64,000 bases of DNA from the NCBI GenBank assembly GCA_016180645.1, contig JACPAV010000021.1, forward strand, positions 45,793-109,792, written 5' to 3'. The stretch is from Nitrospirota bacterium (GTDB taxonomy: Bacteria > JACPQY01). Shown piece by piece: positions 59,262 to 63,647 of the stretch (position 1 is its first letter; each line of letters begins with the position of its first letter). The position numbers and the translations under genes are program-made. Under the pieces are notes generated by a model that did not search any database, was not told the origin of the DNA, and saw only the letters and a list, made by a program, of their open reading frames with translations.

Positions 59262-59325
59262 TCAAGCCACTTGGATGATGTCCGGGTCCCTCATGTCGTG
59301 TGCGATGGAGATACGAGTCTGGCCC
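59262..59325 (-). pseudogene. C-terminal remnant of a second retropepsin-like gene
   Basis: In a frame different from the gene at 59291-59701, the minus strand reads GQTRISIAHDMRDPDIIQVA and stop. This closely matches the tail of the retropepsin at 62664-63059 (GKTRVSVGHDMRDPDIIEVA). No matching N-terminus is present, so only the tail survives. Confidence 0.7.
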
Positions 59326-59701
59326 GCCGATTCGAAGCGGCCGGGAGCGGACCCGCCGCGACCAGTTTCTTGCGAGCGGGGTCGACAACCAAGTTCAGGC
59401 CCTCGAGCGTCCGAGCGCCGAGCAGCGCCTGATCGCCGGGTTCGGCAAAAACGACTTCGTCAATGGTAAAGGCTTGCGCCACGCGAAGGATGGCGAAGCC
59501 TACGCTTTTCGTGACGACTTGACCATTGGCCATGACGAATCGAAGGTCTTTCTTCTCGCGCACCACGCCGATCCGTTCGAGCTTGTCGGCGGGAATCCAC
59601 GTGAATTCGCTCCCCGTGTCAACGAGAGCCTTCGGAATGCGGACGGACCTCCTTCGCTCGACGTGATGCTCAACCTTGCAATCGACGTGGAAGGTACCCA
59701 C
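59291..59701 (-). CDS. Retropepsin-like aspartyl protease, subfamily 1
   Basis: 136 residues. ALVDTGSEFTWIPADKLERIG is the single-domain aspartyl protease motif (DTG plus following hydrophobic-hydrophobic), then GFAILRVAQ and ALLGARTLEGLNLVVD, with the LVAAGPLPAA end that typifies this group. It would act as a dimer; substrate unknown. GTG 59701 is 6 nt from an extended -10 (TGATATAAT). The last 14 residues run into a relic of another retropepsin gene, suggesting loss of the original stop. Confidence 0.75.
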   Translation of the reverse strand: MGTFHVDCKVEHHVERRRSVRIPKALVDTGSEFTWIPADKLERIGVVREKKDLRFVMANGQVVTKSVGFAILRVAQAFTIDEVVFAEPGDQALLGARTLEGLNLVVDPARKKLVAAGPLPAASNRRARLVSPSHTT

Positions 59702-59707
59702 CGGAGG

Positions 59708-59716
59708 ATTATATCA
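59708..59716 (-). promoter_or_regulatory. Extended -10 promoter of retropepsin gene 1
   Basis: TGATATAAT on the minus strand, 6 nt before GTG 59701. Retropepsin gene 2 has the same arrangement. Confidence 0.6.
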
Positions 59717-59778
59717 CGGTCGTGAGGCCGGTGAGGGGACGGTTCGAACGTCGAGAAACTGGAGGAAGGTGGACGCAC

Positions 59779-60567
59779 TCAAGTTGGATGATGGTATCCG
59801 TCATGCCCAACATGCCTGGCAAGACTTATCATGCGTCGAAAAATTCGGATCAGGTATCCCATGGAGCTTGGGGATAGGAGGCTGCGCCACGGGGATGTCG
59901 GAAGGGATGAGTGAAGAGCGGTGCCGGCTTTCGACGCCGTGTTAGTGCCGGCGTCCAACTTGAGGCCGAATCCATCCGCCATCCGCGTCAGGTGGTTGAA
60001 GATACCGACGATGTGGGCGACTTCCAGGCAGGCTTCGTCATCGAAGCCCAGATCGCGCAGTGGCTTCCAATCGTTCTCGACCATTTTCGTGGGCGTGCCG
60101 CTGAGCTTTTCGGCCACGGTGCACAGGGCTTTCTCGCGTGAGGTGAGAGAGGTCAACTCCCGCCAACGGCGGTTCTTGATCGCCTCGACGAGTGCGGGAT
60201 CGCCGCTTTCCGTACGCAGAAACTCTGCGTGAGATTGCGTTCAGTAATGGCAGTCTTGTGCGGCGGCGGTGATGGCGGCCACCATTTCGCGCTCGCCTCG
60301 CGTGAGCTTCCCCGGTGCGAACATGATTTGACCGAACAGGAGGCCGAAGAAGGGGCCGATCCGGTCGTGCGCCATCACGAGCCGGGTCATGGCGGGCAGG
60401 AATCCGAAGTCATACGGAGCGAACGGAAGGGCTCGGCGGAGGGCTTCCTCCGACGGGATCGTCACCCACGCGGGCCGGTCTTGATCCGGAGTACCAGCCA
60501 CGGACGGTGCGGTGCCCCGCCCATCGGGCCGACCACGATGGGAGGCAGAAGGAGGCGGGGTGCTCAC
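59779..60567 (-). CDS. AhpD-like/carboxymuconolactone decarboxylase-family peroxidase-related protein, probable selenoprotein (UGA = Sec)
   Basis: 262 residues if the TGA at 60241-60243 is read as selenocysteine. Upstream: LTRGEREMVAAITAAAQDCHY; downstream in the same frame: TQSHAEFLRTESGDPALVEA, LTSREKALCTVAEKLSGTP, VAHIVGIFNHLTRMADGFG. Peroxidase-related AhpD-like enzymes have a redox CxxC followed by xxxHaxxLR; here it is C-H-Y-U. A hairpin ACGCAGA-GTT-TCTGCGT begins 10 nt after the UGA, with G first in the loop, fitting the bacterial SECIS rule. GTG 60567 overlaps the upstream stop (GTGA). The last 55 residues exceed the family length. If not Sec, it is a nonsense pseudogene. Confidence 0.75.
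60214..60230 (-). promoter_or_regulatory. SECIS-like stem-loop
   Basis: Minus strand ACGCAGA-GTT-TCTGCGT: 7-bp perfect stem, 3-nt loop starting with G, apical loop 17 nt after the UGA. Matches the loose consensus for bacterial SECIS elements that recruit SelB. Confidence 0.6.
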
Positions 60568-60911
60568 GCGACCTCGATTTTCTTGTCGATGAACCGGTCG
60601 TACCACTTCATCTCGCTTGGAGTGACGAGGTGAAACTCGAACGGGCTGCCGTATCCGATTTCGTGGTGGATGTCGGCGGAGAGCTTCGATCGTTCCATGG
60701 TTTTCTTGGGCATGGAAGGGGAGACAATGAGCACATCGATATCGCTGTTGATCCAGAAGTCGCCTCGCGCCACGGAGCCGAAGAGGAAGACTCTTGCGCC
60801 CGGCACCATGCGTCTTGCGAGTCGTTTGATCTCCTTGAGGTAGGACCGTCGGCGCCGGAAGTATTCCGTCCTTCGATTGGCCCTCTCAATAAGATAGTCG
60901 ATGTGTTTCAT
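60564..60911 (-). CDS. MNT-type minimal nucleotidyltransferase (antitoxin)
   Basis: 115 residues. VFLFGSVARGDFWINSDIDVLIV has the complete GSxARG...DxD site of MNT nucleotidyltransferases, which neutralise HEPN toxins by AMPylation. The ATG overlaps the HEPN stop (ATGA) and its stop overlaps the start of the selenoprotein gene. Confidence 0.85.
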   Translation of the reverse strand: MKHIDYLIERANRRTEYFRRRRSYLKEIKRLARRMVPGARVFLFGSVARGDFWINSDIDVLIVSPSMPKKTMERSKLSADIHHEIGYGSPFEFHLVTPSEMKWYDRFIDKKIEVA

Positions 60912-61342
60912 TTCCGGCCCTCCGCAAATTCCGTAAGGACGTTTGCGAAGCGAAGCATCAATTCAACCTGCTCTCTTGTGTATTCAAGGGGGATGTATCG
61001 AGTGCCGATGTATGCCTGCTCGAGGTCAAGGATCACGGCCCTGTGTTGTTCGATAAAGCTCTCGGCTTGATCGCGCGCGCCGTACGCGCCGCCGAATTCA
61101 AGCAGGAGGTCGGTGAGCGAATGGGTTTTCAAAAACTCGCCCAGCTTCAGGCCGATCCGATATTTCAGGTGGAGTTGGCAGAATTGTTCGATGTGGAAGG
61201 CGGCGACGTCGTATTTTTCTTCCTTGAAGAGCCGCTGCGCCACGTCCAGGAAGATGAGCGCCCTGTCCCGCAAATACCCGACTTCCAAGTCGGCCCGTTG
61301 GCGGCTGAATCCTGCCCTTGACTGCTTCTTCCCTTTCGACAT
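60908..61342 (-). CDS. HEPN-domain protein (toxin partner of MNT)
   Basis: 144 residues. Long helices: YLRDRALIFLDVAQRLFKEE, VAAFHIEQFCQLHLKYRI and TREQVELMLRFANVLTEFA, with the TRYIPLEYTREQ segment of HEPN proteins; a full RxxxxxH RNase motif is not obvious. It forms the standard HEPN-MNT pair with the next gene. ATG 61342 is 6 nt from TAGAAT. Confidence 0.8.
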   Translation of the reverse strand: MSKGKKQSRAGFSRQRADLEVGYLRDRALIFLDVAQRLFKEEKYDVAAFHIEQFCQLHLKYRIGLKLGEFLKTHSLTDLLLEFGGAYGARDQAESFIEQHRAVILDLEQAYIGTRYIPLEYTREQVELMLRFANVLTEFAEGRK

Positions 61343-61348
61343 GCTCCC

Positions 61349-61376
61349 ATTCTACGGTTCCCCGGTGCGAAATCAA
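61349..61376 (-). promoter_or_regulatory. Leaderless promoter of the HEPN-MNT-selenoprotein operon
   Basis: Minus strand TTGATT, 16-nt spacer, TAGAAT (61349-61354), 6 nt before ATG 61342. Confidence 0.55.
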
Positions 61377-61468
61377 AGCGATGCGCGCCCCCTCTCAAAA
61401 AAAGGTGGCATTCAATCTATCGCGGATTTTGCGGGCGTTTCTTCTTCCGCCCGGAAACTCAGGGATGG

Positions 61469-62663: not shown

Positions 62664-63059
62664 TCACGCCACTTCGATGATGTCCGGGTCGCGCATGTCG
62701 TGGCCGACGGAGACTCGCGTCTTGCCGTTCCGATTCTTGATCGTGATGTCCCAGCCTTGCATCGTGTCCGCCCCGATGACCATTTCTCTCTTGAGGTCGG
62801 GGGATACGAGGACGCGATCGTTGATGCGCCTCCGCCCGATCGTCATGATGAGGCCCGTCTCACCGACAATACGCACGCCTCCTGTCTTGGATGCGGTGCC
62901 CAAGGTCTTGATGAGGGGAAAGCGGATGACGGTTCTGGCCGAAGGAACGCAATCGGATCGAATGATGGAATAATGCGAGCCGGTGTCGAACAGGGCGGGG
63001 ATGGTCTTTTTCTTCTTGTCCCCCGAGATCACGGTGATGGTCAGAACAGGTTTTCCCAC
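62664..63059 (-). CDS. Retropepsin-like aspartyl protease, subfamily 2
   Basis: 131 residues. PALFDTGSHYSIIRSDCV is the DTG active-site loop; ETGLIMTIGRRRIND, VIGADTMQGWDI and the C-terminal HDMRDPDIIEVA complete the fold. Single-domain, dimeric retropepsin type. GTG 63059 is chosen because an extended -10 (TGGTATAAT) ends 7 nt before it; the ATG at 63068 overlaps that box. A tail remnant of the same subfamily lies at 59262-59325. Confidence 0.75.
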   Translation of the reverse strand: MGKPVLTITVISGDKKKKTIPALFDTGSHYSIIRSDCVPSARTVIRFPLIKTLGTASKTGGVRIVGETGLIMTIGRRRINDRVLVSPDLKREMVIGADTMQGWDITIKNRNGKTRVSVGHDMRDPDIIEVA

Positions 63060-63066
63060 GACCGCC

Positions 63067-63075
63067 ATTATACCA
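63067..63075 (-). promoter_or_regulatory. Extended -10 promoter of retropepsin gene 2
   Basis: TGGTATAAT, 7 nt before GTG 63059, preceded by GACCG as at retropepsin gene 1. Confidence 0.6.
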
Positions 63076-63090
63076 CGGTCACGGAACCGG

Positions 63091-63273
63091 TCAGAGTTCG
63101 GGCGGGATGCCGCTTTTTATGAGAACATCCCGGATGAAGGAAATGAATCTCTCCGCCTCGGTGATCGCTTTCTCGGCGTCGGCCTTGTCGAAGAAACTCA
63201 AACGCTCGTAGTCGCTGTCTTCCCGCCCGTGCCGGAGCCCGTTGCGGATGTTCAGGACGGTTTCTTCGTCCAC
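63091..63273 (-). CDS. Short HEPN-like helical protein
   Basis: 60 residues. NIRNGLRHGREDSDYERLSF followed by ADAEKAITEAERFISFIRDVL, the last being the typical C-terminal HEPN helix. It overlaps the MNT gene by 22 nt and is much shorter than a full HEPN (about 130), so it is either a mini-HEPN or a truncated partner. Start GTG 63273. Confidence 0.55.
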   Translation of the reverse strand: MDEETVLNIRNGLRHGREDSDYERLSFFDKADAEKAITEAERFISFIRDVLIKSGIPPEL

Positions 63274-63587
63274 AGAACTTTCTCGTCGCGCCGAAGGCCT
63301 TTCCAGAAGGGAGCCGAGCTCCCGTACATTTTATCGAACCGGTCGAGAGGCACGATTCGGGGCGAAATGCTCAGTTCGCGCTCCAACTCGAAATGGGTGA
63401 CCAGCTCGAAGATGCGGTCCTTCATGTCGAGGCTCGCATCGGTGACCACCATGAGGACGTCGTAGTCGGAATCCGGTCTCCAGTCGTTTCTGGCCCGCGA
63501 TCCGAAGAGGGCGACCCGGACGAGACGATCCTGCAAAGCTTCACGCAGCCTTTCAGTCAATTCGTTCCGTATGGGCGCCGGATCCAC
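63252..63587 (-). CDS. MNT-type nucleotidyltransferase
   Basis: 111 residues. VALFGSRARNDWRPDSDYDVLMVV is a complete GSxARxD...DxD site. Together with the short HEPN-like gene it forms a second HEPN-MNT pair. GTG 63587 is preferred: TTGGGA-17-TACCAT ends 6 nt before it, as for other leaderless starts here; ATG 63617 is also in frame. Confidence 0.8.
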   Translation of the reverse strand: MDPAPIRNELTERLREALQDRLVRVALFGSRARNDWRPDSDYDVLMVVTDASLDMKDRIFELVTHFELERELSISPRIVPLDRFDKMYGSSAPFWKGLRRDEKVLWTKKPS

Positions 63588-63647
63588 GAGTCCATGGTAG
63601 CAGAACGGTCGGAGCATCCCAAGGGAGGGCATGTGCGGGGAGGTTTA

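Follow-up and report, generated by a model that had tools for sequence, protein, structure and literature searches.

An AhpD-like gene with an in-frame TGA in a Nitrospirota genome very probably encodes an additional member of a described selenoprotein family

Does the single TGA that interrupts an AhpD-like gene of a Nitrospirota bacterium encode selenocysteine (Sec), or does it merely break the reading frame of a damaged gene? The window, that is the whole stretch of 64,000 nucleotides analyzed here (contig JACPAV010000021.1), carries on its minus strand a frame that runs from a GTG at 60567 to a TGA stop at 59779. This frame is open apart from one internal TGA at 60243-60241 in the peptide context ...AAAQDCHY-TGA-TQSHAEFL.... 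A standard gene caller halts at this TGA and cuts the gene in two, so that the enzyme is missed or labelled as a pseudogene. An earlier note on this DNA had joined the two same-frame segments into one AhpD/CMD-type protein and had placed the TGA at the second redox position of a CxxC motif (C-H-Y-TGA-T-Q-S-H); the coordinates and the reading proved correct on both points. We consider it very probable that the gene is functional and belongs to the AhpD-like selenoproteins, with the TGA encoding Sec and the hairpin following the UGA serving as a bacterial SECIS element.

The read-through protein matched the Pfam domain CMD with 33.1 bits (cut-off 23) and the NCBIfam model TIGR01926 'peroxidase-related enzyme' with 110.1 bits (cut-off 81.8), which places it within the latter family. 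Based on these matches, the region 59779..60567 (minus strand), the longest likely reading, was annotated as an AhpD-like gene of the peroxidase-related type (TIGR01926/COG2128), and the predicted product is a carboxymuconolactone decarboxylase/AhpD-type protein. The internal TGA (60241..60243, minus strand), the U of C-H-Y-U, stands in place of the second Cys in the redox CxxC motif, and the Cys codon at 60250..60252 (minus strand) specifies the first redox residue of the resulting CxxU. Two further codons on the same strand complete the putative active site, a His codon at 60229..60231 located four residues past the U, the last bases of which also lie within the SECIS stem, and a Glu codon at 60286..60288 located 12 residues ahead of the Cys. 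Numbered from the GTG at 60567, Glu94, Cys106, Sec109 and His113 were invariant in an alignment of six sequences. For Mycobacterium tuberculosis AhpD a proton relay comprising Glu118, Cys130, His132, Cys133 and His137 has been described (PMC3141380), and the spacings of our four residues match those of Glu118, Cys130, Cys133 and His137.

The assignment of the TGA as a Sec codon builds on its orthologues as well as on the Sec machinery of the genome. The patterns used in the collection scan included a version with Cys at the site and therefore the scan was not tuned toward TGA. It retrieved five near orthologues, from four Chloroflexi MAGs and one Candidatus Binatia MAG. Moreover, a profile search of 301 genomes from the phylum to which one of the Chloroflexi MAGs belongs yielded two more near orthologues spanning the site and one whose match falls short of it. 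All seven near orthologues that span the site, with 62-69% identity in the core (Chloroflexota and one Binatia), carry a TGA at the identical codon. More distant homologues mostly have a TGA at this column too, and three have TGT, encoding Cys. Hence, the column is occupied by either Sec or Cys, which is what a redox selenoprotein should show. The homologue alignment proposed in the earlier note thus favors its reading; stop codons elsewhere in close relatives, which it had named as the mark of a plain pseudogene, were not found, the orthologues carrying their TGA at exactly this codon. SelB was over the cut-off in three of the five MAGs found first, and the remaining two gave partial or weaker matches only, which can occur in incomplete MAGs. 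In one distant genome, several distinct genes of the AhpD/CMD type carry a TGA at the redox position. This genome seems to encode an enlarged set of AhpD-like selenoproteins, one of which has Ser in place of the usual first Cys. The viral contigs searched contained no homologue.

The host genome (4.7 Mb, 97% complete) contains selA (556 bits), selB (369.8 bits; cut-off 242), selD (356.9 bits) and a tRNA-Sec (73.3 bits), the last of which is also called by ARAGORN with the anticodon TCA. All four genes to be searched for according to the earlier note are hence present, and a lack of Sec machinery, which it had listed as grounds for refutation, can be set aside. Judged by this gene content, the host should be able to insert selenocysteine. 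The host selD carries an in-frame TGA of its own in the active-site motif CAGUAGK and would accordingly be a selenoprotein gene too. This points independently to a decoding of UGA as Sec in this host.

A perfect 7-bp stem starts ten nucleotides past the TGA, as the earlier note had pointed out together with its GTT loop, the G in first position and the SECIS-type distance. This description was borne out. In the hairpin (60214..60230, minus strand) the bases 60230-60224 pair with 60220-60214, and the GUU apical loop at 60223-60221 lies 17 nt from the UGA. The published rules for bacterial SECIS elements demand a loop of 3-9 nt, a stem of 4-16 bp, a G in the first two loop positions, a spacing of 16-37 nt and a minimum free energy at or below -7.5 kcal/mol (PMC13188914). 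With its 3-nt loop, 7 bp, G in first place, distance of 17 nt and fold energy of -9.8 kcal/mol for the 36-nt hairpin stretch, the structure agrees with this model in every respect. As a single sequence the hairpin was only moderately unusual (z = -1.8). When the peptide was kept fixed and synonymous codons were resampled from nearby genes, all seven pairs were obtained in 0.6% and an equally good fold in 3.5% of the cases, suggesting that the hairpin is more than chance. A search of Rfam gave no match across 59700-61400 even at E 5, and thus no curated SECIS family lends support.

In addition to the fold, the annotation of the hairpin is based on frozen synonymous sites and on covariation. Among eight sequences, the codons +4 to +9 downstream of the TGA were identical in 154 of 161 pairs with the same residue (96%), compared with 1548 of 3024 such pairs (51%) elsewhere in the gene, and this stretch had the highest codon identity among 158 six-codon windows. 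Stem pair 17-27 is C-G in eight sequences, while it is G-C in seven TGA-bearing homologues that are more distant. This switch couples a GCA/GGA codon (Ala/Gly) to the choice between CTG and CTC (Leu), the latter being silent in the protein. Across these 15 TGA-bearing sequences 97.1% of the stem cells were paired, more than in all 500 shuffles and in every slid register, with the percentage being biased upward as the sequences were selected for an ungapped, recognizable hairpin; the synonymous-site freeze is unaffected by this choice. The covariation is confined to a single base pair, the change of which tracks one Ala/Gly replacement and may reflect a single old event in the family, since the two states of the pair follow the division into near and distant homologues. 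Taken together, the conserved TGA, the frozen synonymous sites and the covariation are, as comparative evidence, stronger than the fold of the single sequence. From the sequence features, their conservation, the covariation and the Sec machinery we infer that Sec is inserted at the UGA.

Both ends of the gene require comment. A whole-genome DNA search and blastn identified a dispersed repeat some 70 bp long (60493..60562, no strand assigned). It lies immediately past the stop codon of the upstream gene for an MNT-type minimal nucleotidyltransferase, between this gene and the conserved region of the enzyme, and supplies some of the codons of the apparent N-terminus. The repeat was found at ten further sites of the genome with 80-90% identity, one of them being a short partial match at 83%. 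One genome site has two adjacent copies, and the repeat may be a REP-like or palindromic mobile element. The near orthologues begin about eight residues ahead of the conserved AW, where the host genome has the repeat sequence, and an alternative GTG at 60510, within the repeat, would result in a length similar to theirs. Therefore, the true start (60567 or 60510) is uncertain. At the C-terminus all close orthologues stop shortly past the conserved ...AL, whereas the selenoprotein frame continues for about 45 codons (59779..59913, minus strand), a run-on delimited by the alignment and by low model confidence. In the AlphaFold model the helical core is confident, while residues 2-35 of the N-terminus and the C-terminal tail (217-236 and 249-263) are of low confidence. 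Another copy of the repeat was ruled out as the source of the run-on because the region is single-copy in the genome; a lost stop or a frameshift is a candidate cause. Given the repeat-encoded part of the N-terminus and the run-on C-terminus, this copy could be in an early stage of decay, though with its Sec codon and SECIS intact.

A more radical explanation would be that the whole gene is a pseudogene, in which the TGA arose by plain nonsense mutation and the hairpin is a coincidence or a product of codon bias. We regard this as highly improbable, as the same TGA is present in orthologues of at least two phyla, the frame is otherwise open and conserved, the synonymous freeze is confined to the hairpin and the genome encodes a complete Sec machinery, although the altered termini would fit a pseudogene and so would one other genome of the same family (84% complete), in which neither a match to the protein nor a SelB over the cut-off was found. 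Because of the latter result, the gene may be a recent arrival in the host lineage. A TGA kept across phyla together with frozen synonymous sites led us to reject the pseudogene, which is already refuted at the level of the family. It is extremely improbable that the TGA is decoded as a residue other than Sec, e.g. as Trp by recoding. We found no point in support of such a decoding, and it is opposed by the Cys at this column in three homologues, by the tRNA-Sec with anticodon TCA and the SelB of the genome, by the SECIS-type hairpin at the right distance and by other genes of the window that terminate normally at TGA, for instance the MNT gene.

The remaining alternative concerns the neighborhood, which the earlier note had described as an HEPN-MNT operon with the enzyme as its last gene. 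The gene order was confirmed, and the functional linkage was not. An HEPN domain gene (60908..61342, minus strand; Pfam HEPN, 67.7 bits) and the MNT gene (60564..60911, minus strand; Pfam NTP_transf_2, 55.7 bits), both over the respective cut-offs, are adjacent and collinear with the selenoprotein gene, and by these domains they fit an HEPN-MNT (type VII) toxin-antitoxin pair. Against the MntA antitoxin model NF047752 the MNT protein scored 25.9 bits, below the cut-off of 60. Co-transcription of the MNT and selenoprotein genes is possible. The common strand and the GTG at 60567, which overlaps the MNT stop by 4 bases, would suit a selenoprotein that acts in the HEPN-MNT module as its third component, such as a redox sensor or effector. 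We nevertheless consider such a component very unlikely, since tblastn of HEPN and MNT against 15 loci with TGA-bearing or near homologues (flanks of ~1 to 3 kb) returned nothing significant outside the window, the dispersed repeat lies between the genes, the near orthologues start just ahead of the AW where the host has this repeat, and our literature search found no link between selenoproteins and HEPN. Given the homologue loci devoid of both genes and the intervening repeat, the HEPN-MNT pair is probably an incidental neighbor unrelated in function. That the selenoenzyme is co-expressed with the pair and modulates it or is controlled by it can hardly be expected; if true, a toxin-antitoxin module would be tied to selenium or redox state. 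Further along the window there is a second MNT-type nucleotidyltransferase gene at 63252-63632 that overlaps a frame of 60 aa (region 63091-63632), which may be a short HEPN-like partner. Two small genes resembling retroviral-type (clan AA) aspartic proteases at 59291-59701 and 62664-63068 lie near one another and near the nucleotidyltransferase genes.

If the gene is read as a selenoprotein gene, SelB carrying Sec-tRNA(Sec) would bind the hairpin and deliver selenocysteine at the UGA. The selenium would then occupy the position of AhpD Cys133 in the CxxC motif. Its partner would be the Cys three residues earlier (AhpD Cys130), and Glu and His are spaced as in the AhpD proton relay. Judged by homology, the enzyme would most likely reduce peroxides or another small oxidized substrate and be recycled by a thiol or thioredoxin-type reductant, the presumed electron donor.

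Mycobacterium tuberculosis AhpD is similar in the predicted helical core and in the spacings of Glu, Cys, the second redox residue and His. It is an AhpD proper, whereas our selenoprotein is a member of the peroxidase-related subfamily with Sec for Cys133 and Tyr for His132. A Tyr at the latter position has likewise been found in P. aeruginosa PA0269. The best PDB matches over the core were 6k40, annotated as AhpD (E 7.8e-28), and 2oyo, an uncharacterized peroxidase-related protein (E 1.1e-26), which carry Cys (CVYC and CLYC, respectively) where the selenoprotein has Sec. With NF041238, the AhpD-related CFYUT (seleno)protein, it has a common AhpD-related core with C-x-Y-U-T; membership was rejected at 62.1 bits compared with a cut-off of 175.

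The earlier note had proposed a probable new selenoprotein. Its claims of a selenoprotein with CxxU and SECIS are well supported, but the kind is not new. AhpD-like selenoproteins with CxxU (COG2128) were reported in 2005 from the Sargasso Sea with 27 sequences (PMC1088965), the GOS set of 2008 comprised 299 sequences of AhpD-like 1 (PMC2398784), and a review of 2026 lists the family as TIGR01926 with CxxU (PMC13188914). On the basis of its sequence the gene is an additional member of this described family. It adds an AhpD-like selenoprotein with comparative SECIS support to a lineage sparsely represented among the genomes examined, and it sits in a genome for which the one relative examined from the same family yielded neither a match nor a SelB above the cut-off. 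Our protein shares with AhpD-like 1 (COG2128/TIGR01926) the domain family, the CxxU motif with Sec in second place, a bacterial SECIS just downstream and the common occurrence of Cys homologues. It differs in its host lineage, its repeat-derived N-terminus and its run-on C-terminus, which are the new details, and in the HEPN-MNT pair alongside.
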